Shown here piece by piece: positions 32,327 to 50,847 of a stretch of DNA of 64,000 bases. Under the pieces are notes generated by a model. It saw nothing but the letters and a program-made list of their open reading frames with translations, had not been told where the DNA came from and did not search any database. Numbering within the stretch: the first letter of the stretch is position 1; each line of letters opens with the position of its first letter. The DNA lies in assembly GCA_024281825.1 (NCBI GenBank), contig JAMWZY010000010.1, forward strand, positions 39,411 through 103,410, read 5' to 3'. A program made the position numbers and the translations under genes. This DNA comes from Nitrosomonas sp. GTDB taxonomy: Bacteria > Pseudomonadota > Gammaproteobacteria > Burkholderiales > Nitrosomonadaceae.

Positions 32327-32923
32327 ATGTATAACCGCCTTAGTCTGTTTGTGCTGCTTTTCACTTTCCTATTCTTATCATCGAATGGCCATGCAGAAAA
32401 TGTTACTGTAGAAATAAAAACCAGCTTGGGAAATGTCACCATTGAGCTTCATTCCGATAAAGCGCCAAAAACCGTAGCAAATTTCTTGCAATATGTTGAC
32501 GATGGTTTTTACAAAAATACAATTTTTCATCGTGTTATTCCAAACTTCATGGTGCAAGGTGGTGGTTTTGATGCCGATTTGAACCAAAAACCCACACGCC
32601 CTCCAATACCGATCGAATCTGACACCGGTTTAAAGAACGACATTGGAACGATAGCCATGGCACGTACTTCTGATCCCAATTCGGCCACTGCACAATTTTT
32701 CATCAATGTTGCCAAGAATGATTTCTTGAATTTCAAAGCACCTAATGCCAGTGGCTATGGCTACGCTGTTTTTGGTAAAGTAGTCAAGGGTATGGAAGTC
32801 GTGAATAAAATCGCTTCGACACCGACAGGCTCTTCTGGTCCATTTTCAAGAGATGTCCCTAAAACCAATATTATCATTCAAGATATTACTCGTATCTCGA
32901 GTTCTAAAAAGACTCATCAATAA
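32327..32923 (+). CDS. ppiA: periplasmic cyclophilin peptidyl-prolyl isomerase
   Basis: 198 residues with a signal peptide (MYNRLSLFVLLFTFLFLSSN, cut after GHA). The mature domain has the cyclophilin core FHRVIPNFMVQGGGFDADL, with the catalytic Arg in FHRVI, and ATAQFFINVAKNDFLNF. It catalyses proline isomerisation during folding of exported proteins. It lies 34 bp upstream of the cytoplasmic paralogue; the pair appears to be a local duplication with one copy exported. Confidence 0.93.
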   Translation: MYNRLSLFVLLFTFLFLSSNGHAENVTVEIKTSLGNVTIELHSDKAPKTVANFLQYVDDGFYKNTIFHRVIPNFMVQGGGFDADLNQKPTRPPIPIESDTGLKNDIGTIAMARTSDPNSATAQFFINVAKNDFLNFKAPNASGYGYAVFGKVVKGMEVVNKIASTPTGSSGPFSRDVPKTNIIIQDITRISSSKKTHQ

Positions 32924-32957: not shown

Positions 32958-33449
32958 ATGGTCAAGCTACATACTAACTTTGGCATCATCACTCTGGAAC
33001 TAGATCAAGAAAAAGCCCCTGTAACAGTGGAAAATTTCTTACACTATGTCAATAGTGGGTTCTACGATAATACGATATTCCATCGTGTCATCGACGATTT
33101 CATGATTCAAGGTGGTGGATTAGAGTCCGACATGAAACAAAAAAGCACACAGGCACCGATTCAAAATGAAGCAGCGAATGGGCTGAAAAATGATGCTTAC
33201 ACCATTGCCATGGCACGAACGGCTGATGTTCATTCAGCTACCTCGCAATTTTTTATCAATGTAGCCAATAACGGTTTTTTGAACTACCAATCGGCAACAC
33301 CACAAGGTTTTGGCTATTGTGTTTTTGGTAAAGTTATCGAGGGTCAGGATGTTGTCGATAAAATTAAGAAAGTAAAGACAGGAAACGCTGCCGGACACCA
33401 AAACGTACCGGTTGAAGATGTCGTTATCGAAAAAGCAGAAGTCGCATAG
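32958..33449 (+). CDS. ppiB: cytoplasmic cyclophilin peptidyl-prolyl isomerase
   Basis: 163 residues, no signal peptide. [40 protein letters not shown] and [18 protein letters not shown] are typical of PpiB. A good ribosome site (AAGGAAGC) precedes the ATG. It follows ppiA directly and is strongly similar to it throughout the core. It assists folding in the cytoplasm. Confidence 0.95.
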
Positions 33450-36314: not shown

Positions 36315-37334
36315 TTATTTTTTTCTGGCTATCTGTATCAGTTGATTAGAAACTTTATTGGAACAATGCTTACCTTGTTCAAGATCTGTAAGATTTGATA
36401 ATGTTGTCATGGCAATATTTTCTAGAGCAGTGATGGTAAAAAAAGCTTGATGCCCAGTGATCAGAACATTTGGAAATGTTAATAACCTCGCAAAAATATC
36501 ATCTTCTAGAATTTTGTCTGAAACATCCTCAAAAAATAAATCACCTTCTTCTTCATATACATCAAGCCCTAAATATCCAATTTTTCCAGATTTTAAATTC
36601 TTTATTACCGCCACAGTATCGATAAGTGCGCCTCTACTCGTATTAATCAACATAACGTTTGGCTTCATATACGCTAGCCCTTTGTCATCAATTAAATGGT
36701 AGGTTTCGGGTGTCAGTGGGCAGTGCAAACTAATAATATCTGATTGTTTCAGGAGGTTTTCTAAATCAGTATATTTAACCCCATATGCAGCACAACGCTC
36801 ATTTGGACAAGGATCATAAGCGAGTATCGTACAATCAAAACCAGACATGATCTTGCAAAAAACCGAGCCAATTTTTCCTGTACCAATGACTCCAATTATT
36901 TTAGTATTCAAATTAAAACCCAGCAAACCTTCTAATAGAAAATTATTTTCTCTTACCCGATTGTATGCACGATAAATTTTTCTATTTAAAGCCAGTATTA
37001 ATGCAACGGCATGTTCTGCAACCCCATGCGGCGAATATTCCGGAACGCGAACTACTGTAATATTCAATGCAGCAGCAGCACTCAGATCTACATTATTAAA
37101 GCCCGCACAGCGAAGTGCAATGATGGTTATTCCTAGATCAGATAATTTTCTAAGGCAATTCTCGTCGATCTCATCATTGACAAAAACACAAACCGCTTCG
37201 AATCCTTTTGCCAATGGTGCTATCGTCGCATTCAGATGCGCGTCAAAATAAGTCAGGTCATGATTAAATTTACTGTTGCCTTCATCCAAGTATTTTCTGT
37301 CATATGACTTAGCCCCGAATACTGCAACTTTCAT
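36315..37334 (-). CDS. ldhA: D-2-hydroxyacid dehydrogenase, D-lactate dehydrogenase-like
   Basis: 339 residues. MKVAVFGAKSYDRKYLDEGN closely resembles fermentative D-lactate dehydrogenases. NAD-binding VIGTGKIGSVFCKIM, catalytic Arg in TSRGALIDT, Glu in LDVYEEEGDLFFED and His in ITGHQAFFT are all present. It would reduce pyruvate to D-lactate. It lies directly downstream of the copper-oxidase operon in the same direction (122-bp gap), but I see no functional connection. AAT-rich codon use is slightly more extreme than in neighbours. Confidence 0.85.
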   Translation of the reverse strand: MKVAVFGAKSYDRKYLDEGNSKFNHDLTYFDAHLNATIAPLAKGFEAVCVFVNDEIDENCLRKLSDLGITIIALRCAGFNNVDLSAAAALNITVVRVPEYSPHGVAEHAVALILALNRKIYRAYNRVRENNFLLEGLLGFNLNTKIIGVIGTGKIGSVFCKIMSGFDCTILAYDPCPNERCAAYGVKYTDLENLLKQSDIISLHCPLTPETYHLIDDKGLAYMKPNVMLINTSRGALIDTVAVIKNLKSGKIGYLGLDVYEEEGDLFFEDVSDKILEDDIFARLLTFPNVLITGHQAFFTITALENIAMTTLSNLTDLEQGKHCSNKVSNQLIQIARKK

Positions 37335-37455
37335 CGATATATCTCCCTATCACCGTGTCTTATCGCTCAAGTAGAAACTAAAACGGCAAAATCACTATTC
37401 AAGCATGCGCTTGCCTTTGAGAAGAATGATCTCAATTGTCATTGCGTGATTTTAC

Positions 37456-38811
37456 TCACTTATCAATAAACACTTGATTAGACAACAAATCAAAGCTTGG
37501 CCTATGATACAAAAAGAGATCTTCTTCCCATTGTAAAATTTCTGGCAGCTTGCTGGGATTGATAGATTTTTCACCAACCAGTGATAAAAACTTACAAGCT
37601 GCATCCGCCCAAACGTCAACTGGTGCGCGCCATAGCCCATTCTCAGTAGCTTTAGGATGATACGGATAGGCTATATATTTTTTTTGCAGAGAATTTCCTT
37701 GAGAATTATCAATTACTTGGTTTGGGTTGATAAAAATGGCGGGCACAAGCATTAATTCATCTCCTAATGAATTCTGGTTAATTTGATTAGAATTGAATTG
37801 CTTTAGCCATAAAGTAGCAATCTTGGCTTGTTTATGTTTCTTTTCTGATTTATCTGCTATGACCAACATTCCATGCTCAATAGCCATTTCGATAGCGACT
37901 GTAGAGAGTTTTAAGCTAAGAAGGTTTTCGGGCTCAGAGTAAATGCGCAATTGCATGTAACCTTCTGCTTTAGCGGATTTTAGTAAAGTCAATATTTGAG
38001 ATTCAAGACCTGGGAAGGGAAATATCCAGTTACTTTCATCGGGTGGATTTAACACCGAGAATGGTAGAACTGTTGATATATTATTGTATCGCATTGCTTT
38101 TGCATATTGATGTTCCCAGCCTGGTAAGAAAGGCACGAGAACTAAAGTATTAGTATTTTCTGATAAACGTTTGTTCAATTTAATCATTGCATCTTCTGGT
38201 GTATCGAAATAAAGCATATCGATGGCCGCAATCGGAGAGCCATTTTCTGTCGCAGGACAATTTTTGAGTTTAGAATCCAACACATCAGCGAGTGCATTCT
38301 GGCCTGACTTTGGGAGCAAACCAAGAATAACGAATTGAGTTTGATCTGAACTTTTTAATTGATCGATACTGCTAAGGTAAGCAATCAAGCTGTTGATTTC
38401 GTCATCTGCTAAATCGAAACGTGGCATTACTGGATCCAGTTTTCTGTCAGCAGTCGTTATACCAGTTCGTACTACTGTAGAGAAACTCGATTGATCGTAA
38501 GGTGCTTTGGCAGCACCTATACGCCTTGCTGGGTATAGTTTACTTAGATTTGACCAACGAATATCGGGTACTTGAACGAATGCTTCGCCACCGCCGCGCG
38601 CATCCATGCCGTGACAACTAATGCACGCGATGGCGGCGCCTTTTAAGGAAATTCTGCCATGGATCATTGCGTTAATTTCTCGGCCATCTCGTCCGATCCC
38701 TTTTTCATAAATTGAGCGTCCCAAATCTATTGCATCGGTTGCTAGCGCAGGGTTGATATGGCTAATTAAATAGAAACTAAGTAGAAGAAAAACATTATGC
38801 ACTTGTAGCAC
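37456..38811 (-). CDS. exported mono-haem cytochrome c fused to a binding-protein-like domain
   Basis: 451 residues with a signal peptide cut after ALA at residue 24. One haem site, CISCH (C63, C66, H67), and a probable axial Met at VMPRF (M129) define a class I cytochrome c domain to about residue 150. The remaining 300 residues begin FVILGLLPKSGQNALADVLD and look like a type I periplasmic-binding fold, without obvious membrane segments. It is the last gene of the copper-oxidase operon, three bases after the second SCO gene. Likely role: accept electrons from the oxidase substrate, or pass them to it, in the periplasm. The binding domain could sense or present a ligand. Fusion function is inferred. 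Confidence 0.75.
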   Translation of the reverse strand: MLQVHNVFLLLSFYLISHINPALATDAIDLGRSIYEKGIGRDGREINAMIHGRISLKGAAIACISCHGMDARGGGEAFVQVPDIRWSNLSKLYPARRIGAAKAPYDQSSFSTVVRTGITTADRKLDPVMPRFDLADDEINSLIAYLSSIDQLKSSDQTQFVILGLLPKSGQNALADVLDSKLKNCPATENGSPIAAIDMLYFDTPEDAMIKLNKRLSENTNTLVLVPFLPGWEHQYAKAMRYNNISTVLPFSVLNPPDESNWIFPFPGLESQILTLLKSAKAEGYMQLRIYSEPENLLSLKLSTVAIEMAIEHGMLVIADKSEKKHKQAKIATLWLKQFNSNQINQNSLGDELMLVPAIFINPNQVIDNSQGNSLQKKYIAYPYHPKATENGLWRAPVDVWADAACKFLSLVGEKSINPSKLPEILQWEEDLFLYHRPSFDLLSNQVFIDK

Positions 38812-38814
38812 TTT

Positions 38815-39408
38815 TTACTGTCCAGCCAAACGAAGTAAATCAGCTACAATACGTTCAGGTGGTGAGTCCGGTCGCAATTTGATCCAGTGCGCATTGCGTG
38901 CGTTGCCAGCAATTAATAAAGTACTATGATTGTTAGGATCATCAGTCCACTGATTGAGACGGCCCAAAATTTTTGCCATGGTTGCTTCATCCGCTGTGAG
39001 AAACCACCATCCAGGAACATTGGCTTGTTGCTTTTCTGCAAAAATCTTTAGCGCAGCAGGATCATCCCGCTTAGGATCCACGGATAATGACAAGAAAGCG
39101 ATCTGAGTACCAAAATGCTTTCCCAGTTGCTTACGAACAACTTGCAATTTTTGTGTCTGCATCGGGCAAGCGTCCTGGCAATGGGTAAAAATAACATTAA
39201 TCAACACCACATGTTGACTCAGTAAGTCACTAACAAATCGGTACGACACACCATTCTGGTCGATTAAAAGATCATCACCGAAATAATTACGTGCACGTTC
39301 TAATTTATTCTCCGGCTGTGCATCAACAGCCGAAGTCGAAGCTTGTAGGGCTATTGATACCAAGCTAATCAACCCTAGCAGGAGTAATAAAGTGATTTTT
39401 CTCATCAT
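38815..39408 (-). CDS. SCO1/SenC-type copper chaperone (second copy)
   Basis: 197 residues with an N-terminal signal or anchor (KITLLLLLGLISLVSIALQA). The thioredoxin-like fold carries the copper motif CQDAC (C77, C81) in INVIFTHCQDACPMQ, and a His in PNNHSTLL (H161) at the ligand position. SCO proteins deliver copper to oxidases in the periplasm. The start overlaps the previous gene's stop by four bases (39405-39408). Directly followed by the cytochrome gene. Its target is probably the giant oxidase of the operon, not cytochrome oxidase; this is inference from context. Confidence 0.88.
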   Translation of the reverse strand: MMRKITLLLLLGLISLVSIALQASTSAVDAQPENKLERARNYFGDDLLIDQNGVSYRFVSDLLSQHVVLINVIFTHCQDACPMQTQKLQVVRKQLGKHFGTQIAFLSLSVDPKRDDPAALKIFAEKQQANVPGWWFLTADEATMAKILGRLNQWTDDPNNHSTLLIAGNARNAHWIKLRPDSPPERIVADLLRLAGQ

Positions 39409-39992
39409 AAATTATCTTTGGCAAGCATATTAATCGCTTCAATGATGCTTTCCGGCGATGGAATACCAACCCAGCGTAACCAGTGATTAGTATTTGCATT
39501 ACCTGCCAGAATAATTGGCGGATGATCTTCGGGGCGTCCGACGGGAATTCCGAATGCTTTCAATAACTGATTAATTTCTGACGGCCTTCCGGTCAACCAA
39601 TACCAATGTTGTCCCGCATCAAATTTCTCCGCGTATGTGCGTAATTTATCGGGTGTATCTTTCGCAGGATCGACCGAAATAGAAACTAAAATAACGCCTT
39701 TCCCCAATTCATCTTGTAATTGCTTTTCGATAGCTTGCATGGTGGCACTGAGTACCGGGCAAATCGTCGTGCAGGAAGTAAAGACAAAATTAACAAGTGC
39801 AATCTGCTTTTGTAATAAATCCAGTAATCGATGTTCTTGATTCTGACTATCCAGAACGATAATATTTGGCAAAACAAGATGTGTCCGATGTGCGTTGTTT
39901 GTTTTTGTCTGGTTGTTTGAATTCTCTGATGATTGCGCCCACACTGTGATTGCCATCAGCGCGGTCAAAATGACACTAAGCTTTGTGAGCAT
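39405..39992 (-). CDS. SCO1/SenC-type copper chaperone (first copy)
   Basis: 195 residues from the ATG at 39992, which overlaps the stop of the propeller gene by one base (TAATG); the longer open frame to 40118 lies inside that gene. Signal-like N-terminus MLTKLSVILTALMAITVWAQ. Copper motif CTTIC (C74, C78) in VNFVFTSCTTICPVL and a His in EDHPPIIL (H157) are intact. It also has NHWLRW, matched by AHWIKL in the second copy. Periplasmic copper insertion or thiol redox activity is expected for the family. Confidence 0.9.
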   Translation of the reverse strand: MLTKLSVILTALMAITVWAQSSENSNNQTKTNNAHRTHLVLPNIIVLDSQNQEHRLLDLLQKQIALVNFVFTSCTTICPVLSATMQAIEKQLQDELGKGVILVSISVDPAKDTPDKLRTYAEKFDAGQHWYWLTGRPSEINQLLKAFGIPVGRPEDHPPIILAGNANTNHWLRWVGIPSPESIIEAINMLAKDNL

Positions 39993-41893
39993 TAATTTTC
40001 CGTAGGATTTTTTGATTTCTCTACCAATACAGTAGAGAAAGTTGATTTTAATGGCCGATTTCCTTCGATATGAACATAATAACCGCCACTCTGTGTAAGC
40101 TTCCCGCTGATAAACCACTCACCTGGTTTTTGGGGATCGGCTCGCATCGACCAAACTGTGGAAGTTCCACCTTGCGCAGGAACAATTCGTAACCTCAATT
40201 GACTGACTGGTAATAATTTACCTTCAGCCTGTCCTTCAACTTTGACGCGAAAATCCACCGGTAAATCAGTGCTCGTTTTTTGTATGCCGTCACTGAGCCA
40301 GTGTACGGCAGTGGCGTCATCGCTACTCGTATTGATAGTCGTATCAATCTTTAATCCTAGACATTCTCGCAATACCGGTGCTTCACTCGCCAAAGCCAGG
40401 ACCATACGCCCTGCAGAAGGCAAGCGAATTACTGTTGAATATTGCCCGGACTTTATTTCGCGTAATCCACGCTGCACTACCAACACTGACATGGGTGTAT
40501 GTCCAAATGTTTTTAATCCGGAATTGGGCGCATTCATGCCTTCCATATAATGATAAAGCATGCGCTCGGAAGGCGTTGCAAAGAACGCTCCGGAGCGATC
40601 CAGTGTCAGTGACATACTAGAAGCGCGAGGAAGATCCTGTGTTTCCAACAATGCACCTGCCCCTGCAGGCACCAACTTCACAATCGGTTGCTCACTATCA
40701 AGACTGCTAAGCGACAACATTCCTATCTGTTCGCTTTGCAAGGTTCGGATGTACGCATATTTCTCGGAAAACAAAATATCGTAGGGCTGTCCAGAAAGAG
40801 TAACGCGATGTTTTTCCTTGCCAGTTTCGATATCAAGCACATGAACCCAGTGCTGATGTGGATTGACTACCATTGCATAACGCGCATCCAGTGTTAATTT
40901 GATCGGCCCTAAACCAGGCTCCAACACCAGATTATCGACCGGATTACCTTGTGTATCAAAGCGATGAATTCGCCCTGCTTTGGCGTTGACTACCCACAAC
41001 AATGATTGCTTGTCTACAAAAACTAAACCGAGCGGCTCAAAACTCAAGTCAACTTCACGCACCGCTTTCAAGGTAGTTGCATCGACGATGGTCATCGACT
41101 TGCTTTGCCGATTGCTGATAAAGGCATGGCGCCCATCACTGGAAAAAGCGATTTCGTGATAACCGTAAGGTAAAGAGATGCGTGCTATGGATTTGTCATT
41201 AATAGTATCGATGATTTCGACCGCACTTTCCTGCGGATCTGTTCCGGTCAAACCAACCCACAACAAGCGCTCATCAGGTTGCAATACCAAGCGTGTGGGT
41301 TGGCCTTGCAAAACCAAGTGATCCAACACACTCAGCGTTTGCAAATCGACAATCGCCAGTTTCTTTTCATTGGGCAATGCCACAAATAACCGCACATCAT
41401 CACTGGTTTTAACCCAATCGAACCCTTTACCGTCCAGCTTCATTGCACTATACAAGCTGCTGCGTCCGCTAAAACTAACAGACGGATCCAACACGGAAAT
41501 ACTAGATTCAGCATCCAGGCTCAACACGTAGTACCCTGTCAGATCCAGTAATGGGCGTTCGATCAGATTGCCGCTAAGATACCGCGCAACTCGTTGCCCG
41601 CAAACTGGCACAGCACCTGACATGGTATCGGTTTCCCGATCGAGCCAAGCGCCGATGCGCCAGTTGCTCAGAATTTGATCGTCAGCAAGGCGCTTACCAT
41701 CAAGCGATAACCGCACCAATTGTCCTGCTTGCAGCACTGCAGGAGCAGTCTCATCAAGTGCCTCGATACGAACGTTTAACTGTACGCCTTCTCGCTCGAT
41801 TGTTCGATCAACATAGCGTGGTGGTGGGGCTGCTTGTGCAACTGCGACAAATAACAGTTGCAGCACCACGCACGCTAGAACTAGCCATCTCAT
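39992..41893 (-). CDS. exported beta-propeller (YVTN-type) protein with Ig-like C-terminus
   Basis: 633 residues, signal peptide cut after QAAPPP-proximal Ala (MRWLVLACVVLQLLFVAVAQ). Repeats such as KKLAIVDLQTLSVLDHLVLQ, SKSMTIVDATTLKAVREVDL and HWVHVLDIETGKEKHRVTLS, spaced 40-45 residues, build a six- or seven-bladed propeller over residues ~130-440. The C-terminal ~110 residues look beta-sandwich-like. The ATG overlaps the oxidase stop (ATGA at 41890-41893). Propellers beside multicopper oxidases are plausible scaffolds or substrate-binding partners; no enzyme motif is visible here. Confidence 0.78.
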   Translation of the reverse strand: MRWLVLACVVLQLLFVAVAQAAPPPRYVDRTIEREGVQLNVRIEALDETAPAVLQAGQLVRLSLDGKRLADDQILSNWRIGAWLDRETDTMSGAVPVCGQRVARYLSGNLIERPLLDLTGYYVLSLDAESSISVLDPSVSFSGRSSLYSAMKLDGKGFDWVKTSDDVRLFVALPNEKKLAIVDLQTLSVLDHLVLQGQPTRLVLQPDERLLWVGLTGTDPQESAVEIIDTINDKSIARISLPYGYHEIAFSSDGRHAFISNRQSKSMTIVDATTLKAVREVDLSFEPLGLVFVDKQSLLWVVNAKAGRIHRFDTQGNPVDNLVLEPGLGPIKLTLDARYAMVVNPHQHWVHVLDIETGKEKHRVTLSGQPYDILFSEKYAYIRTLQSEQIGMLSLSSLDSEQPIVKLVPAGAGALLETQDLPRASSMSLTLDRSGAFFATPSERMLYHYMEGMNAPNSGLKTFGHTPMSVLVVQRGLREIKSGQYSTVIRLPSAGRMVLALASEAPVLRECLGLKIDTTINTSSDDATAVHWLSDGIQKTSTDLPVDFRVKVEGQAEGKLLPVSQLRLRIVPAQGGTSTVWSMRADPQKPGEWFISGKLTQSGGYYVHIEGNRPLKSTFSTVLVEKSKNPTEN

Positions 41894-44800
41894 TGTGACG
41901 CTGTGTTAATTGCAACGGTACTGCAATTGGATCGCAGCGACTGAGGCGCAAATTTTTCACCATAATGCTTATCTTTAGGGGCATCCTCGATACGTATCAA
42001 AGCCCATAGCCCACTGGTGATACCAAAACCACCATGATCACGCCAGAGGTAATCCCCTTTCATACCATGCTTCCCACCTGCTCTTGGAAAAATCAGATCA
42101 AAATGCGCCATCGGCGTCAAACTTTCCTGACCACCTAAGTGCATGGCTAATGCATTCTCACCGATACATTTCGATGGCGTACCCCAGCCCTTCCCTTCCT
42201 CACCATAGAATCCGTATTGATTGCCACCCTTAGGAAATGAGTGTCGTCTCTTGATCTGATTATTTTCCTCATCAGTATCATCGTACTCTATTTCTTCGAC
42301 ATATTGCGCCAAGTAGGGATCGCGCATCCAACTATGGCCATGTAATTCCACGGTTGATCCACGCCCTGTACCTGTCGGCATCAAAGCACGGATGCGCATT
42401 TCCTGACCGGCATAGGCTTTCATAATTGGTACATAGGGTTCACCAACGGGTTTATCGGCACTGATTACGGTACCAATCCCTTTACCGTTACGGCAACACT
42501 TATCGCTAAATGCCCCCGAAGCACTGTCAGCTCCGCCGAATCCAGACTTACCGAATGGCGCATCAGGCGGCAAACCAAAGCGGAACCAAAGCGGCTCGGC
42601 GCCATAATTGATCGCCATATGACCGGAATCGTGTGCATCTTCTGGTGCGGAATTTAAAGGATGATCCGGGTGATTCGTCAAATTCTTAGGAACTACTCTT
42701 TCTTTTTCTGATGCTAAATTCTGAACGGCGGATCCATCTTTATAGCGCAAATTCAATCCCTTTTGATGTACCATCACCAGATCTCGGAATTTACGCTCTC
42801 CTGTTGCAGTTCGATATACCACATCGGCCATGGTCCGGGTATAGCGCAGATTAATCTTCCCGACATTCGGGGGCTGTTGGCGATCGAAAACCTTTTCGGT
42901 TTCGGTTTTGTTCCAGGAAGCACCTTCCGGTTCTATCACCAGCGCACCAATTGCCCCTTTCTGACCTTGCTTGATACGATCAGGCGGAGTTAGGTTGCTG
43001 CCACCATACTCGACCGCAACAAAACGGGCCGGTTCACACTCATCATTACTTTTACCTTTTTTGAGCGAAATAAGCCGAGTAGTATATTGCGAAATCGGCC
43101 AAAAAATTTCTAAGTCTTCCTTATCTGCTTCAAAACATTGAGCTAATACTTTGATAATTTTCCCTCGATCAAATGTATTTTTCCCGATAGCATCCAAATC
43201 TGAATGACCTAATGCTGACGTACATTGACTATCTTGAAGCGTATTTTTGGCTTTTAACCGTAACTTTTCTAAGCTAAAAAATATACCATCCGAAGACCGC
43301 CATTTTTTGTAACGATCCATAATTATTTTCGTTATTTCCTCATTGTTCAAATTTGCAGGACTAAAGAAAGTAGTATTGCCAGGTTGAAAAATTTCCTTAA
43401 CTTTAAATTTAGAATTCTTGTCATCAAAGCTATCCAGGTACCGAATTTTGAATTCAGTAAATGTTTCATTCAAATTTGCATCTGAAAATAAATCAATCGA
43501 AGATAGAGATGTTTTCTTAATTGGAAGAGCAAAGTAATTAAGGGTTTTGTACGCTTCTTGGAAGGCTACATCACCCTCAACTAAACATGCTTTATTAAGA
43601 TCACGCGGAATTTCTACTGTACCCGCATACCAAGTATATCTTTTGAGTTTTCCTGGACTCACTGTGTTCACAGAATTAAAGCCAATATTATTACCATCCG
43701 AAGCTTGCACATCATAATGCGCCATTTGTGGATGCAAACCAATATGATTTGATGGGCGAATCAGATTGTTATTAAACGAAGTTAACGAGTTACCATAATA
43801 CTTTGCCTGGTAACAATTTTCTTTTTCCTTTCCGCGCCTTAAAGATTCTTTTCCTAAATCGGGACAATTACGAGGAATGATTCCTGAAACCGAAGTAAAG
43901 CCATCCAAATCTGGCATTTCTCCAGAATTCTCGGGCAACTGATTTTTTAGTGTGATTTGAATACAATCACCTGCAGCAGCGCGCAACACCAAAGGCTCCA
44001 CAGGTGCTCCAGGCTTCAGCTTACCATCTTCCAAATCTTCGTCGCGCACAAACATGATTGCCGTTGGATCATGCAGCGGACCTGTTCCATAGAATTTAGT
44101 ATCTAGTAATTCTCCATTTTTACCATATATTCCAATACTGATTTGGGTTAAACGTGGGTTGTATACCAGTGATCCTCCCCTAGAATCTAAATGTGATCGT
44201 GTTTCTGGCTGCCACCACTCCCACGCCCACCAATTGTAAGATTCAGATTTCCAATTGGGGATCGTAGCACCTACCGAATTGCCTAGTACTTTATTAGCCA
44301 AAACAGCAGAAACTGTATAGGAACGAATTGGCGCATTTGAAGGGCATGCGTTGTCAATTCGTTCCTCATCCCTACTAGGCGCTAACAAAGTGGGTATCGG
44401 ATTACTTGCCAATGGCATAAGCTTTTGATGAACCGGCACCCTATTATAGCTTCGCAGTACCCCCCAAACACCATTCCATAGTCCGTCCTGACTCGAATCT
44501 ATCGTATACATACGATCATTCATTCCGAATGGGCTTTCATAGTCGACAAGATTAGCAGTGAATGTGAATTGCTCCGACAACCCAGCATTCTGTGAATTGC
44601 GCCAACCAGAATGAGGAGCCTGCCCATAACCAGATCCAGCTTGTAACCATGATAAACCATTGATCGATGCATTATGCTCATGTTCATGAGACCCGCCTTG
44701 GATCTTAATTCTTACCCGATCCCCCGATTGCGCTTGTAAGATCGGTGTAAATGGATCACCAGGATAGACGCCTGAGGTCAATGTTTCATATCGTGTATTA

Positions 44801-47800
44801 TCTGAGGTTGTATTAAGCGCGGCTATAGCTCGATCTGTTCTGGTTTGCATGGCAAAAGCTAAATCACCATTTTCCCCTTCAGCTTGAGTCCCTTTCTTGC
44901 CATCCGGTCCACGCTTATTGGGATCATAAACACGCGCACCAATCGGTTCATTCCGATAGTTCACCACCATCATACCGACATCGTCGGCTGAAATGGCTTC
45001 AGGGCATGGGCGCAGCGGTTGTCCTTTTTTGTTATATAAACTTAGATCACTGAAGTTTGCTTCAACATTATAGATTGCTCCGGGCAATACTTCCGATCCC
45101 TTGCCACCCGGACATGTTGGTTCAAATGCAAGAATATCCGGAAATACTGGTTTTGCTGGTTTTCTAACCGATGGGTTGATGGCAAAACGGAAACTATTTT
45201 GCGATGGTTTTTCTCGCGGAGGATTCTTCTGATCTTGTCCCTCCAGTTTATTTAAATGCTCTTTTATTACCCAACCGATCCCCCCTTTGTCGACACCGTA
45301 ATAAGCACCTTTCACGTAAGCATGCTGAAAATCACCAAATTGCAGGAAAAATTCACGATGCGAATCATCACCTCCATCTCCATCCACATCGATTTCTTGA
45401 CCGTCTTTTCCTGTAATCACTGCTTGCCAGGAGGTAGGTCCGCCGTCATTTCGTTTAGTACGATCATAAAGTTTAACTCTAGCGCTCTTAGAATTAAGCT
45501 CATTACTCCACCATTCAGACCCAGGTGGCTCCGTCAACATCGTTGCATAAAGCCCTAATTGTTGGTGTGTAGAAGGCCCTAAGTGGTCATGCGTAAAAGT
45601 CGTCCCTAATCCTCGATGGATCCCTTGACGATTCACGATTGGATCAGAAAACCAACGTTGTAAAGTTGTGCGTGCTCCTAACCAATCACAAACACCAGGT
45701 ATGCCATACTTGACGTGAAATTCGAGTAACCCTTTATCTTCTTTACGCATACATTCATTAAATTTTTGATCATTCTCAGATTTTTCCTTACACAAATTTT
45801 CTGCTTCTTTTGTAGCTTTATCTAATGTGTCGCGCCATAAAGTCAGGCAATTATTTCTTTGATGGTTAGGGATTTCTTTTCCGTTGAAATAGGCGTGAAT
45901 CTTTGGCTCCAAAAACTCTGTAAAAATTAATTCCCCATTGGGCCCATAATCGGGAGGCGGGGGCACTTGATGATCCTTGTTAAACCCATTCCATTTATTA
46001 ATCGCATCGATACGTTCACGAACCGTATCAGGTGAAAAAGTACCATCTTCATAATTCCAGCCATTCGCACTACCGTCCGCCGAAGTCAAATCCCATTTCG
46101 GCAGATGAATATGCTGTCCGATGACATCCGTTGGTGTTGTAATTTGGTAATCATCGGCGTTAAAAATTGCGGGTATTAGATTCGTGTGCGCATACATGGC
46201 GCAATCAAAAGTATTCATCCGCAACACAAGCGGCTCAGGCGCTTTCGGACGCTTTCCCTTTAATTCATTTTCTGAAAGCCTTATATTGAGTAATGGTTCT
46301 ACATCTCCCCATAACGCCAAAATCCGCTGTTGCGGGTAGTGGTACCCCAGCTTATTAAAAACCACGTCTAGCTGTATATTGGCACCTTTATAGATACGTG
46401 GATTATCGGCGCCGAATTCGATTCCTCCAAATAGCGATGACTTGACATCAATGTATTGATTGTTCCCGCCATAGGTTCCACCGAAGAACTGACCATCCCC
46501 CCCTTTTTCTAAGCGTTGGCCCTGATCGTCCATACACGGTTCATTGAATGGAGCCCCGGGAATTGGGTCTGCTCCATTGGTAATAAAGTTTGAAGAAGAA
46601 ATATTACCCTTCTTATCCACCATGTGTGTTTCATGCCTACGCACTGCATGATAGGCCATTGCCATTTGCTCAAGTTTTGTACCCTGCTCATGATAATAAA
46701 TTGGCATAGCTTCTTTAACCACCTTGAAAGCAGAGATACGATCAATTTCCGAGTATGACAATCCATTTGCTGAATAACCTGCCAGGGCGTGACGAGGTAA
46801 CCCCCCATTGCCGCCTTCAATTCCAAGTGTTTTACCCATAAATTCCGGACAGTTTTTTTCATTACACATATCCAGGGGAGGTGTGGTTGGACGCGAACCC
46901 ACAGATACAAATTGATTTTTTTCGTCAACTTCTTTTCCATCTTTTGTATAAGTGGCTACACCTGCTATCCAAAATGGATAACCTGGATTTGGAGGTTTAA
47001 TTCCCGTTGCTTCCTTTTTCTCTACTTGTTTGTCATCTTCATCATTTTGAGGAATATGTTCAGCATTCTCAAATAATGTCTCCGGAATATCGACGACCGC
47101 AACCGATCCATGTGCTTTGCCGTCCAATCCGATACGAGGTTTAACGCTCACATTAAGCGGCATGGGCGCCATACCTTTCCCGGGCAGCGGAATAATTGCT
47201 GGAATCGGAACACCCGCTATAATTTCTCCGTCTGGCAATGCGCGAGCAGTTTTCGATGGTTTGCCTGACATTAATCCAAATGGTTTTTTATGATAATGCT
47301 TTGCGAGGTCAAGCTTATCGAGGTCTTCACTAATAGCTAATTTCGTTCCTGCTTCAAACACATCATGATTGCGCCACAAATACCACATACCTTGAGCAAA
47401 ATGGGGGTAGAAATGACAATGGAAGATAGCATCACCTACAGTTTTATTGCGATTGCCTGACCCACCAAAAGCAATTTCATAGGTATAACCTGAACCCGGC
47501 CCTATGCCTTGTGCATCGATATAATTAGAGTTGTCGTCATTGGGATTGAACAACCATTGATGATTGTGTAAATGGAAAATATGTTGTTCCTTGCCAGAAT
47601 GCAAATTACGAAACTTTACAAAATCTCCAATATAACTGTGGTGCACATTAGCAGGATCGTGTGGATAATAAACTTCTGTTGCATGTTGATCGGCTGGTTG
47701 TTCACAAAATTTTCCCCTTGCTTCTTCATACTTAGGATCTAGTATTTTATTGCCTTTAGGATCATTCGGGTCTTCGACCATTCGAATATATTCAGGCTGG

Positions 47801-49338
47801 CATTGACTAATCACGAGATTAGCCGGTTTGTCTACTAACATAGCAGCATCGCCAACCGCAAATGATGATAAGAAAAACTCTTCATATGCGCAATCCAGGC
47901 AATCATGCATAGGCCCAGCATTTAGTCGATTGGCAATGATTTCTGCGCCTATTCCACCAGAGCCATAATTAATCATGAAGGCATCCCGAACGCCATGGAA
48001 CGTATGTCCTAGTTCAGGATGTTCGAAGAAATATGGAAATGCTTGTGTGGCGGCATTTTCATCGTGAAAAATCGAGACAAATTCACGGAAAGGTTCCAGG
48101 CGATTGGGTAAAGTGGGATTACGCGCCCCTATGCTCTCGAGCGGATAGGTATTATTAGGAAAACTACCATCATCATTGGGACCGATAATCATCGCATTGA
48201 TATCACCGTGAATAATGCGATTATCATCCTTCCGTACCATATTCAAAATAGGTTTTCCAGCCTTTCCTTCCTGGCACCAAACTTCATTAGTTGCGCAATC
48301 ATTAGGATAAAGCGCTTCATAATTGATAACAGGATGCCCGTCTGGCGTTAAGCGTGGTACCTTATTACCTTTATCATCGACATCTTCGCTCGTTGCCAAA
48401 CGCATTTCTTCTTCTGTCACTTGCGCACGATAAAATCTCGCATCTTTAGGTTCTACAATCACTGCGCCAAATAATCCTACACCACTGTTTCCGGATGTGC
48501 CTTCCCCCCCAAAAACAGCACCATCACTACTAACAAGATAAGCTCCTTCCTTTTCCGCACGGAAGCAGTAAGTTTTGGTTTCTCCAGGAGTGGGGAGCGT
48601 CATCTTTTTTTCTATACAGTCATCATCAATCTTGGTTTCTCTAGTTTTTTCGGGATCGAGAAACGGAAGCGCCAAACTGCATCTATTTTTTCCTACGTAG
48701 GAACTGTCATCATCAATACTCGTAACTAACTCTAGTCCTTGTGGGTGGAACCCTACTGTGCGACTAGCCACTTGATCATCGCTGGTATAGATTTCATGCA
48801 ATTTATTTGTACTTAATCCAAGTTGGTCTTTTGGAGAATGTTCTGTCGGATGATCTATACCTAAAAACTGATCAGGATAATCAAAAGGATTGGCATAATT
48901 AGGTGGAGCATATGCATAATGCTTCAACTTAACATGCAATAAATTAGTGAAATTTACTTTTAAATAACCGCCTGCTGCGACACGCAACACTAACGGTCTA
49001 GGTCTCAAGTCGGGGCGCAGTGCAATACCTCGACTCGCATGATTACTTTTGGCTTTATCAAATAACTGTGTGCCCTCTCTTGTATAATCCAGGCTTTTTT
49101 GGCTGTCCAAATCAATAACATCGTGCCGTAATGCATACATCATCCAATTGACATTCTGTGCACCCAATCGGTTAAAGACCATCGGGTGGTCAATTGCCAC
49201 CACATCGGCTATTAAGGCAGAATCCGGGCAACTTGCAGGATTAAGAGAGGGCGGCTGTTGATTTAGATTCGCTTGGGCTAATGTAGCTCCTACCGCAATC
49301 TTAAGGAACAGTATCCAAAAATATTGTTTGATTCTCAT
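41890..49338 (-). CDS. giant multicopper oxidase, MofA/McoA/MnxG-like, with degenerate second copy
   Basis: 2482 residues with a signal peptide (MRIKQYFWILFLKIAVGATL, then AQA). Copper motifs: HIFHLH (HxxHxH, residues 586-591), HCHFYPHFAQGM (HCHxxxHxxxxM, 640-651, type 1 Cys641), QHIHL (HxH, 1076-1078) and THDHLGPSTHQQ (HxH, 1250-1252). All four are present, but the last two come after the first two. From about residue 1860 a second copy is recognisable: HPQ at 1869 repeats HPQ at 198; ELHGHSW (H2333, H2335) matches FHLHNHQW; WRDHGGFGITSGLW has Asp2434 for Cys641 and Leu2444 for Met651. Gene start has GGGGGAG upstream. Secreted or periplasmic. Manganese(II) oxidation is the best family guess; iron, copper or another reductant is possible. 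Confidence 0.85.
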   Translation of the reverse strand: MRIKQYFWILFLKIAVGATLAQANLNQQPPSLNPASCPDSALIADVVAIDHPMVFNRLGAQNVNWMMYALRHDVIDLDSQKSLDYTREGTQLFDKAKSNHASRGIALRPDLRPRPLVLRVAAGGYLKVNFTNLLHVKLKHYAYAPPNYANPFDYPDQFLGIDHPTEHSPKDQLGLSTNKLHEIYTSDDQVASRTVGFHPQGLELVTSIDDDSSYVGKNRCSLALPFLDPEKTRETKIDDDCIEKKMTLPTPGETKTYCFRAEKEGAYLVSSDGAVFGGEGTSGNSGVGLFGAVIVEPKDARFYRAQVTEEEMRLATSEDVDDKGNKVPRLTPDGHPVINYEALYPNDCATNEVWCQEGKAGKPILNMVRKDDNRIIHGDINAMIIGPNDDGSFPNNTYPLESIGARNPTLPNRLEPFREFVSIFHDENAATQAFPYFFEHPELGHTFHGVRDAFMINYGSGGIGAEIIANRLNAGPMHDCLDCAYEEFFLSSFAVGDAAMLVDKPANLVISQCQPEYIRMVEDPNDPKGNKILDPKYEEARGKFCEQPADQHATEVYYPHDPANVHHSYIGDFVKFRNLHSGKEQHIFHLHNHQWLFNPNDDNSNYIDAQGIGPGSGYTYEIAFGGSGNRNKTVGDAIFHCHFYPHFAQGMWYLWRNHDVFEAGTKLAISEDLDKLDLAKHYHKKPFGLMSGKPSKTARALPDGEIIAGVPIPAIIPLPGKGMAPMPLNVSVKPRIGLDGKAHGSVAVVDIPETLFENAEHIPQNDEDDKQVEKKEATGIKPPNPGYPFWIAGVATYTKDGKEVDEKNQFVSVGSRPTTPPLDMCNEKNCPEFMGKTLGIEGGNGGLPRHALAGYSANGLSYSEIDRISAFKVVKEAMPIYYHEQGTKLEQMAMAYHAVRRHETHMVDKKGNISSSNFITNGADPIPGAPFNEPCMDDQGQRLEKGGDGQFFGGTYGGNNQYIDVKSSLFGGIEFGADNPRIYKGANIQLDVVFNKLGYHYPQQRILALWGDVEPLLNIRLSENELKGKRPKAPEPLVLRMNTFDCAMYAHTNLIPAIFNADDYQITTPTDVIGQHIHLPKWDLTSADGSANGWNYEDGTFSPDTVRERIDAINKWNGFNKDHQVPPPPDYGPNGELIFTEFLEPKIHAYFNGKEIPNHQRNNCLTLWRDTLDKATKEAENLCKEKSENDQKFNECMRKEDKGLLEFHVKYGIPGVCDWLGARTTLQRWFSDPIVNRQGIHRGLGTTFTHDHLGPSTHQQLGLYATMLTEPPGSEWWSNELNSKSARVKLYDRTKRNDGGPTSWQAVITGKDGQEIDVDGDGGDDSHREFFLQFGDFQHAYVKGAYYGVDKGGIGWVIKEHLNKLEGQDQKNPPREKPSQNSFRFAINPSVRKPAKPVFPDILAFEPTCPGGKGSEVLPGAIYNVEANFSDLSLYNKKGQPLRPCPEAISADDVGMMVVNYRNEPIGARVYDPNKRGPDGKKGTQAEGENGDLAFAMQTRTDRAIAALNTTSDNTRYETLTSGVYPGDPFTPILQAQSGDRVRIKIQGGSHEHEHNASINGLSWLQAGSGYGQAPHSGWRNSQNAGLSEQFTFTANLVDYESPFGMNDRMYTIDSSQDGLWNGVWGVLRSYNRVPVHQKLMPLASNPIPTLLAPSRDEERIDNACPSNAPIRSYTVSAVLANKVLGNSVGATIPNWKSESYNWWAWEWWQPETRSHLDSRGGSLVYNPRLTQISIGIYGKNGELLDTKFYGTGPLHDPTAIMFVRDEDLEDGKLKPGAPVEPLVLRAAAGDCIQITLKNQLPENSGEMPDLDGFTSVSGIIPRNCPDLGKESLRRGKEKENCYQAKYYGNSLTSFNNNLIRPSNHIGLHPQMAHYDVQASDGNNIGFNSVNTVSPGKLKRYTWYAGTVEIPRDLNKACLVEGDVAFQEAYKTLNYFALPIKKTSLSSIDLFSDANLNETFTEFKIRYLDSFDDKNSKFKVKEIFQPGNTTFFSPANLNNEEITKIIMDRYKKWRSSDGIFFSLEKLRLKAKNTLQDSQCTSALGHSDLDAIGKNTFDRGKIIKVLAQCFEADKEDLEIFWPISQYTTRLISLKKGKSNDECEPARFVAVEYGGSNLTPPDRIKQGQKGAIGALVIEPEGASWNKTETEKVFDRQQPPNVGKINLRYTRTMADVVYRTATGERKFRDLVMVHQKGLNLRYKDGSAVQNLASEKERVVPKNLTNHPDHPLNSAPEDAHDSGHMAINYGAEPLWFRFGLPPDAPFGKSGFGGADSASGAFSDKCCRNGKGIGTVISADKPVGEPYVPIMKAYAGQEMRIRALMPTGTGRGSTVELHGHSWMRDPYLAQYVEEIEYDDTDEENNQIKRRHSFPKGGNQYGFYGEEGKGWGTPSKCIGENALAMHLGGQESLTPMAHFDLIFPRAGGKHGMKGDYLWRDHGGFGITSGLWALIRIEDAPKDKHYGEKFAPQSLRSNCSTVAINTASQ

Positions 49339-49587
49339 TTTCTCCCCCGAGAAATTATTTCTTCAACTAAAACACCGCATAAGTCAACTTAAGTACCTAA
49401 GAATGCCTGTACCATCAAGACTGAATGTAAGCATACTCATCTTAATTGATAGGCGTGTCAATCACTGCAAAAATATATTCACTTATTGTATTATGGTTAC
49501 TCAGATAAATTCCTTGTAGATGTCAAGAAGCGACGTGATCACGGCACGAGAAAAATCGAATAAAAACTAGGATGATGGAAAAATGGA
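49339..49587. promoter_or_regulatory. divergent promoter region of the oxidase operon and the MFS gene
   Basis: 249 bp between outward-facing genes. TTGACT occurs on the reverse strand near 49390 without a good -10 at the right distance, and no regulator palindrome stands out. No gene is seen; a 63-codon frame here has no ribosome site and crosses the oxidase start. Confidence 0.45.
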
Positions 49588-50847
49588 ATGACTGAACAAA
49601 ACTTGAAACTATTTGGTGTAGTGGCAGAAAAAGGCAGGTGGCTATTAGTCATCATTGGATTATTGATCAATGTTTGCCTTGGATCTATTTACGCATTCAG
49701 CATTTTCAGAAAACCTTTGGAATCACTGTGGGAAATCACCTCGAGCCAAAGCGGTTATCCATTTATGGTTTTCCTGGCAGTATTCGCAATTACGATGCCA
49801 ATGGCAGGAAACCTGATGACAAGATGTGGGCCCAGAAAAACCACGATGCTAGGTGGTTTACTAGTTGGAACAGGATGGATTATTGCAAGTTTTTCTCCAA
49901 ATATCGTCATCCTAACTCTTTTATATGGAATCATCGGAGGTACTGGAGTCGGTATCGTTTACGGTTGCCCAATTGCAGTCATTGCAAAATGGTTCCCGCA
50001 AAAAAGCGGCTTAGCAATTGGCTTAACGGTTATGGGCTTTGGCATATCTGCATTGGTAATGGCCCCGCTGATGAAAGTAATGATCGATCATCCAAGCATT
50101 GGAGTACTTCAAACATTTCTTTATTTAGGGATCATATTAGGGATTGTAATCCTACTCTTAGCGCAGTTATTGAGTTTTCCGCCAGCTGGATGGATACCCA
50201 CAGGAACAAAATTGACGGTAGCAAATGCAAAGACTGTCGCCTCAACCTCAGATCTTAACAGGCAAGAAATGCTAAAGACTCGTCATTTCTATGCGCTATG
50301 GGCTACTTACACAATCGGTTGTCTATCTGGATTAATGGCTGTTGGAATAGCATTCCCTGTTGGAACAGAAATAGCTAAGTTGAATACAACCATGGCAGCG
50401 CTCGCTGTTTCCTTATTTGCCGTGTTTAATGGACTGGGACGACCGCTATTTGGAGCCATGACCGATAAATTCGGACCGAAGTATACTGCCATTATTTCAT
50501 TTGCCATGATATTGAGTGTATCTCTATTAATGTATTTTTTTGAGCAGGAAAACACAACATTGTATCTACTTACATTCTGCATATTATGGATGTGTCTGGG
50601 AGGATGGCTTGCAATAGCGCCTACGTCGACTGGAATATTCTTTGGAAAGAAGCATTATGCGCAGAATTACGGGGTGGTATTCACTGCATTCGGTGCTGGA
50701 GCCATCCTAGGAACACTGATATCCAGCAATATTAAAGATATCACGGGCAGCTATCTGGGTATGTTTCCGATTTTAGCTGGACTAGCGATCCTCGGGATGA
50801 TTATTGCTGCTATTGGATTAAACCCAGTGAAGGGTAAAATCAACTGA
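49588..50847 (+). CDS. MFS transporter of the oxalate/formate antiporter (OFA) family
   Basis: 419 residues, twelve hydrophobic segments. WLLVIIGLLINVCLGSIYAF and FRKPLESLWEITSSQSGYPF at the N-terminus, GNLMTRCGPRKTTMLGGLLV (loop 2-3 motif) and GTGVGIVYGCPIAVIAKWFP with the following QKSGLAIG are characteristic of OFA transporters. Expected to exchange small monocarboxylates or dicarboxylates across the inner membrane. Divergent from the oxidase operon. An overlapping 206-codon frame at 49638-50258 is a shadow. Confidence 0.85.
   Translation: MTEQNLKLFGVVAEKGRWLLVIIGLLINVCLGSIYAFSIFRKPLESLWEITSSQSGYPFMVFLAVFAITMPMAGNLMTRCGPRKTTMLGGLLVGTGWIIASFSPNIVILTLLYGIIGGTGVGIVYGCPIAVIAKWFPQKSGLAIGLTVMGFGISALVMAPLMKVMIDHPSIGVLQTFLYLGIILGIVILLLAQLLSFPPAGWIPTGTKLTVANAKTVASTSDLNRQEMLKTRHFYALWATYTIGCLSGLMAVGIAFPVGTEIAKLNTTMAALAVSLFAVFNGLGRPLFGAMTDKFGPKYTAIISFAMILSVSLLMYFFEQENTTLYLLTFCILWMCLGGWLAIAPTSTGIFFGKKHYAQNYGVVFTAFGAGAILGTLISSNIKDITGSYLGMFPILAGLAILGMIIAAIGLNPVKGKIN

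Follow-up and report, generated by a model that had tools for sequence, protein, structure and literature searches.

A long-form MnxG-type multicopper oxidase and its partner genes in Nitrosomonas

Introduction

Several bacterial manganese-oxidising systems are built around large multicopper oxidases (MCOs). In Pseudomonas putida GB-1, MnxG and McoA oxidise manganese independently of each other and the double knockout makes no manganese oxide, as passages of one study report (PMC11930936); a figure legend of another assigns to the mnxG operon of P. putida genes of the lactonase-type propeller and SCO kinds (PMC8218464, Fig. 2 legend). The Bacillus MnxG works with MnxE/MnxF according to excerpts of PMC5622069, and sections of PMC5566968 describe mofC-like cytochrome genes, in some cases with SCO genes, beside mofA/ompB. 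In the bacterial six-domain MCOs analysed by Vasin et al. 2013 (passages of PMC3600357), the trinuclear site lies between domains 2 and 3 and a mononuclear site is found only in domain 2; the homologues given there span 1,217-2,681 aa and include the 1,886-aa NP_840402.1 of Nitrosomonas europaea.

Ammonium and manganese removal appear to be linked in drinking-water filters, for reasons that are debated. According to excerpts of PMC11995701, putative MoxA, MnxG and McoA were detected in nearly every nitrifier MAG from a tunnel biofilm, and published Nitrosomonadaceae genomes contain them too, so that MnxG-like genes in this family are already in print; the same excerpts call manganese oxidation by Nitrosomonadaceae undemonstrated, state that the function of the homologues in nitrifiers awaits verification and mention protection from reactive oxygen. 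Passages of PMC12070406 argue for a possible manganese-oxidising role of Nitrospira in sand filters, the Nitrospira MAGs encoding MnxG. Here we describe an MnxG-type gene in a 64,000-nucleotide stretch of a Nitrosomonas genome (the window), giving its sequence, copper ligands, family and operon as well as the presence or absence of the operon as a unit. Among the open-licence literature matches listed, judged from titles, abstract starts and passages, we found no description of the five-gene operon in Nitrosomonas; nor did we find there the long-form clade that joins nitrifiers with a methanotroph, or the empty site reported below.

Results and discussion

An intact reading frame with a complete set of copper ligands

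The window had earlier been read, from the sequence alone, as encoding a 2,482-residue MCO with four copper motifs at residues 586, 640, 1076 and 1250. The motifs lie at exactly those residues in an intact frame, which starts with ATG, has zero internal stops and begins with TCGGGGGAGAAAATG. Its N-terminus carries a putative Sec-type signal peptide, recognised by eye. The frame and its copper sites are as follows:

41890..49338, minus strand: long-form multicopper oxidase of the MnxG six-domain type, 2,482 aa (open reading frame, family matches, alignment, tree)
47386..47583, minus strand: HxxHxH (residue 586) and HCHxxxHxxxxM (residue 640), type-1 site and part of the trinuclear site, domain 2 (ligands in 57/57; 9bxa alignment)
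45583..46113, minus strand: HIH (residue 1076) and HDH (residue 1250), remainder of the trinuclear site, domain 3 (ligands in 57/57; 9bxa alignment, the HDH stretch weak when taken alone)

Twelve ligand positions (H586, H589, H591, H640, C641, H642, H646, M651, H1076, H1078, H1250 and H1252) are each identical in all 57 aligned sequences, the window included, and the four copper motifs are therefore more than chance. The alignment comprised open frames no shorter than 1,700 codons, with L094 and L095 left out as the same places as L020 and L011; H646 and M651 fall inside HFAQGMWY, one of the six peptide patterns that found many relatives, which makes the 57/57 of these two residues partly a matter of construction. 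Four further residues, to which we assign no copper role, are similarly conserved, namely H425 and H1555 (57/57) and C480 and C483 (each in 56/57); a disulphide or a substrate site is a candidate role for them.

Assignment to the MnxG family

A Pfam search at E up to 1 returned zero families for this protein, not even the Cu-oxidase domains of laccases and CueO, and on this ground we reject an ordinary enzyme of that type. The NCBIfam search gave a single family, the manganese-oxidising MnxG (NF041487), with a score of 1,941.9 bits that lies below the equivalog cut-off of 3,100 bits; no protein of the window's own genome exceeds this cut-off and none of 14 control genomes matches the model. 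Three collinear stretches of the protein nonetheless cover model positions 4 to 1893 of 1894. The best match in a sequence search of the PDB was likewise MnxG (9bxa, 'Mnx H340A complex from Bacillus sp. PL-12'; E 5.1e-62), in which an alanine stands opposite H646 because of the H340A mutation. Profiles built separately from residues 101-1295 and 1290-2482 both placed 9bxa first (E 2.1e-63 and 4.4e-83). The full-length collinear homology to the model, the match of 9bxa with both halves, and the type-1 and trinuclear ligands with the type-1 domain ahead of the HxH domain are those of the broad MnxG-type six-domain family.

Structure prediction with AlphaFold (AF2) was less certain for the first half of the protein. 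The model of residues 101-1295 (34 of 46 available relative segments in the alignment) had a mean pLDDT of 63.7, with values below 50 across the type-1 region (residues 566-660), and its best PDB match in Foldseek was again 9bxa, weakly (E 0.03). For residues 1290-2482 (33 of 46 segments) the mean pLDDT was 66.4; the top fold match was 9bxa at E 3.7e-26, followed by ceruloplasmin, coagulation factors and copper nitrite reductases, which supports the presence of cupredoxin domains there. That the type-1 and trinuclear sites would assemble in space is supported indirectly, by the alignment to the solved 9bxa.

Motif order and length are family traits

The sequence-only reading had regarded the motif order as permuted and the protein as unusually large. 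The order with the type-1 domain first is indeed opposite to that of two-domain laccases, whose matching stretch is C-terminal (residues 177-266 of 281 in 4n8u). It is, however, the standard order of the six-domain family. The stretches of 9bxa aligned to the window protein follow each other in the same order (251-360, 450-562 and 571-601), of which the HDH-bearing one scores weakly when taken alone (-0.8 bits in the sequence search, 9.4 bits in the profile search), and all eight further family members whose order was checked, Priestia MnxG and one Pseudomonadaceae MnxG among them, show the series HxxHxH, HCHxxxHxxxxM, H[IV]H, HDH. As for size, one clade is made up of 18 open frames with lengths of 2,158-2,482 codons, of which the shortest is truncated at a contig end, and the 2,482 residues lie inside the published bounds of the homologues. 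Given 9bxa, the members checked and PMC3600357 in the passages cited above, both order and length are traits of the family, which removes the novelty of each.

Relation to the Pseudomonadaceae MnxG

Matches above the NF041487 cut-off occur in 31 of the 248 genomes of a family whose assignment to Pseudomonadaceae we inferred from an OprF match. Four MnxG proteins from such loci share 51.3-51.6% identity with the window protein when all aligned positions are counted and 56.9-57.5% with its residues 36-1118, whereas residues 1911-2482, the least conserved of the three parts compared, reach 40-41%. Relative to these four proteins (1,925-1,942 aa), the 2,482-residue window protein has 609 residues without counterpart, spread over 23 insertions of at least 8 residues and further, smaller insertions, with 1952-2073 (122 residues) and 1155-1214 (60 residues) the largest. 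The window protein also differs from them in scoring below the curated cut-off.

We placed these sequences in a quick LG+G4 tree of 63 rows with SH-aLRT as the only support measure, midpoint rooting for drawing only and long branches flagged; Priestia MnxG was left out as a long branch, and L112, L050 and L033 as duplicate or near-duplicates. The tree contains a long-form clade of 18 rows with support 100, which unites eight Nitrosomonas (the window and G054 among them), two Nitrospira, Methylomonas with a near-identical uncultured proteobacterium, Xanthomonas hortorum, two Lysobacter, a Lysobacterales MAG, Ideonella and Piscinibacter. All four Pseudomonadaceae MnxG, together with two proteins of the manganese-oxidising Rubrivivax sp. 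A210, fall among the remaining 34 rows (support 91) of an encompassing 52-row group (support 100). The expectation that the protein would fall among metal oxidases is supported by this tree, whose rows hold no named MofA or McoA, and by sequence comparison the window protein belongs with the MnxG manganese oxidases, as a long-form sister clade.

Two further observations concern other large MCOs. A second, distant lineage (~2,050-2,100 aa), possibly McoA-like, is represented by L086 and L090 (Nitrosomonas G066 and G033) and L140 (the Pseudomonadaceae-like G921), with a propeller, one SCO and a cytochrome c gene downstream. Three MnxG-type genes stand in tandem, by match positions, at G887:C22:377019-394708 and G964:C28:69813-87809, both Pseudomonadaceae-like.

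A conserved five-gene operon

Downstream of the MCO gene, four genes follow in tight packing:

39992..41893, minus strand: beta-propeller protein, 633 aa, with YncE, NirF and surface-layer-like matches (4-nt overlap of its start with the MCO stop; found as a partner in most relatives)
39405..39992, minus strand: SCO1/SenC protein A (the frame is listed from GTG 40118; likely start ATG 39992, ahead of a signal-peptide-like stretch)
38815..39408, minus strand: SCO1/SenC protein B, 197 aa (family matches, partner in relatives)
37456..38811, minus strand: single-haem cytochrome c (CISCH) with a C-terminal part that has no assigned fold (family matches, partner in relatives)

SCO1/SenC proteins are copper chaperones. 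The cytochrome c is possibly MofC-like; its first 273 residues gave only chance-like matches of 22-23 residues in a PDB search. The same set of MCO, propeller, two SCO and cytochrome c genes is present in all five Pseudomonadaceae MnxG loci fetched with their flanks, in one of which (L139) the MnxG frame is split in two, so that the window has the gene content of a Pseudomonas-type mnxG operon. More broadly, 74 loci were examined, 59 of which had at least 5 kb downstream. A propeller, at least one SCO and a cytochrome c gene lie downstream in 52 of these 59, a count that covers the downstream side only and includes the same-place pairs L094/L020, L095/L011 and L112/L029 as well as L053, with an MCO open frame of only 1,052 codons. 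Two SCO genes were scored in 44 of the 59, which is an undercount where SCO genes adjoin (L014 was scored as having one although two are present). Of the seven exceptions, L037 lacks an SCO gene, L108 lacks a cytochrome c gene, and L039, L044, L088, L089 and L093 have zero partners.

Upstream of the window MCO, no sigma-54 promoter was seen by eye, a difference from P. putida mnxG, for which passages of the literature give a predicted one. Scans for sigma-70 promoters and terminators yielded fewer sites than the mean of shuffled sequences.

Distribution and an empty site in a close relative

Within the genus, 20 of 85 genomes match the MCO at E up to 1e-20. Eight of these, the window's own included, carry the long form (open frames of 2,273-2,490 codons), and the 12 others a more distant or truncated MCO. 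The MnxG model matched 2 of 398 genomes in a sample of the phylum (E 1e-50) and 7 of 369 in a sample of the class (E 1e-40), both counts including the own genome and G066. A complete mnx-type operon is also found in a named strain, Nitrosomonas sp. JL21 (L014). The operon behaves as a unit that is either present or absent:

37407..49539, no strand: present/absent cassette, unmatched in a stretch of G057 whose flanks match at 90-92%

On either side of the cassette, up to 37406 and from 49540 onwards, the window is matched at 90-92% by DNA of G057, the closest relative found by a Ppx/GppA-type protein (97%, against 92% for G054). Only ~170 bp separate the two matches, and the G057 genome has no match to the MCO or the propeller. 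G054 has the operon at the same site as the window, and in G042 it lies on a contig other than that of ppx. The GC content of the cassette (0.41-0.48) is close to, and partly above, that of its flanks (0.37-0.43). A loss from G057 is the more economical reading, judged from a single marker.

This patchiness, with 8 of 85 genus genomes carrying the long form and the closest relative found lacking the cassette, could be taken to mean that the gene is a passive, dispensable remnant. We give this very little credence, since the 2,482 codons are intact, the G054 counterpart is 77.6% identical with all ligands kept, and the linkage to the partner genes is maintained in most lineages.

Two genes at the edges of the cassette were considered as operon members and rejected, also because both flank the empty site in G057. 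A D-lactate-dehydrogenase-like gene at 36315-37334 (minus strand), which does not reach the cut-offs of the families it matches best, is strongly matched in L085 alone (91%) and partially (34-37%) in two other loci; for an L-lactate-type MFS transporter at 49588-50847 (plus strand; NF049980, 393 bits, cut-off 320), matches are confined to loci of G054 and the own genome. It is curious to find lactate-type genes in an organism presumed to be autotrophic. Elsewhere in the window, 32456-32812 and 33009-33364 look like tandem paralogues, each matching the other's counterpart in G057 and G054 at 67-70%. Type II secretion proved uninformative as a marker, GspD-like matches occurring in 82 of 85 congeners with only 1 above the cut-off.

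Eight genomes were searched for an AMO-family gene. It is present in four, namely the own genome (G000), G054, the L009 Nitrospira, which is probably comammox because of it, and Methylomonas, where the match is presumably the methane monooxygenase; it is absent from the L034 Nitrospira, Xanthomonas, Lysobacter (L012) and Rubrivivax (L028) genomes. The own genome has an intact copy on C10 and a second AMO-family match at G000:C8:125638-126211 in two overlapping pieces, with one stop counted in each, which may be a decayed copy or an assembly error.

Probable activity

The earlier suggestion of a probable exported metal oxidase in an ammonia oxidiser holds for an MnxG-type, probably exported protein; an AmoA-family gene is present in G000 and a phosphoribulokinase/uridine kinase family gene in the window. 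The further claim of a notable extra redox capability has to be softened, as putative MoxA, MnxG and McoA had already been reported in Nitrosomonadaceae, with activity undemonstrated, in the excerpts of PMC11995701.

The most likely activity of the window protein, and in our judgement a probable one, is the oxidation of Mn(II) with O2, the substrate being suggested by its relatives. The six cupredoxin domains would form an MnxG-type enzyme that is probably exported, and the type-1 copper of domain 2 would take single electrons from Mn(II) and then from Mn(III). These electrons would pass to the trinuclear copper cluster at the interface of domains 2 and 3, where O2 would be reduced to water, and a Mn(III/IV) oxide would be left outside the cell. 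The two SCO proteins would probably supply the copper, and the beta-propeller and cytochrome c probably help in assembly or electron transfer. We know of no member of the long-form clade with a tested activity. Also counting against this reading are the score under the equivalog cut-off, the promiscuity of MCOs, the low pLDDT of the modelled type-1 region, an upstream stretch in which no sigma-54 promoter was seen by eye, and neighbours among which no MnxE/MnxF were seen.

An MnxG-fold MCO could instead act mainly on another substrate, such as Fe(II), Cu(I), an organic molecule or a compound of the nitrogen cycle, for instance as a ferroxidase or a copper-detoxifying oxidase. Multicopper oxidases are promiscuous, the tree separates the long-form clade from the one with the Pseudomonadaceae MnxG and the window protein scores below the equivalog cut-off, and the carriers (Nitrosomonas, Nitrospira, Methylomonas, Lysobacter, Xanthomonas) differ in lifestyle. 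An identity of ~57% through the copper half, and a set of partner genes shared with Pseudomonadaceae mnxG loci, nevertheless argue for the same job, and we consider a different main substrate unlikely.

The haem c protein in the conserved operon raises a further alternative, in which the electrons of Mn(II) would go to the cytochrome c and manganese would serve as an auxiliary energy source. Passages of PMC5566968 point the same way, relaying a proposed joint action of MofA and MofC in electron transfer. The conserved full set of trinuclear, O2-reducing ligands, however, means that electrons can reach O2 directly, and MCO mechanisms offer no clear path to energy conservation according to excerpts of PMC9040806. 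The same gene set is also found in Pseudomonadaceae. These are not known to be manganese lithotrophs, and an energy role seems to us very unlikely. The wider version, in which the long-form mnx operon of Nitrosomonas, a probable comammox Nitrospira, another Nitrospira and a methanotroph would couple Mn(II) oxidation through the operon cytochrome c to electron transport, is a speculation on which we would stake slightly less still; were it true, manganese would be an auxiliary electron donor, or there would be a nitrogen-manganese link, in ammonia and methane oxidisers. For Mn(II) oxidation with O2, our guess is that the benefit to the cell is protection from oxidants and metals rather than energy. 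The operon in JL21 and its clean absence from a close relative of the window genome make the question of manganese oxidation testable by comparing carriers with non-carriers.

Comparison with known systems

Among the described systems, the Bacillus sp. PL-12 MnxG (9bxa) and the Priestia MnxG share the motif order of the window protein, and 9bxa aligns with both of its halves; at 1,217-1,228 aa these proteins are much shorter, and no MnxE/MnxF neighbours were seen among the ORFs of at least 100 aa around the window MCO. The MofA/OmpB operons of Leptothrix and Geobacter are alike in published gene content, combining an MCO with a nearby cytochrome c gene and sometimes an SCO gene, and differ in that no mofB-type isomerase gene was seen at the window locus.

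In the same genus, passages of PMC3600357 list NP_840402.1 of N. europaea as an MnxG homologue. The Nitrosomonas short forms L088, L089 and L093 (1,889-1,910 codons) lie far outside the window clade, and all three lack propeller, SCO and cytochrome genes downstream; NP_840402.1 may belong to this group, judging from its length only. A literature search under the locus name NE0315 found no papers. Different clades and neighbourhoods rule out that the long form is an N. europaea-like short form.

Among the closest described systems is the Pseudomonas-type MnxG (NF041487; P. putida GB-1 type), with which the window shares the motif order, the ligands, the collinear full-length match and the five-gene neighbourhood.
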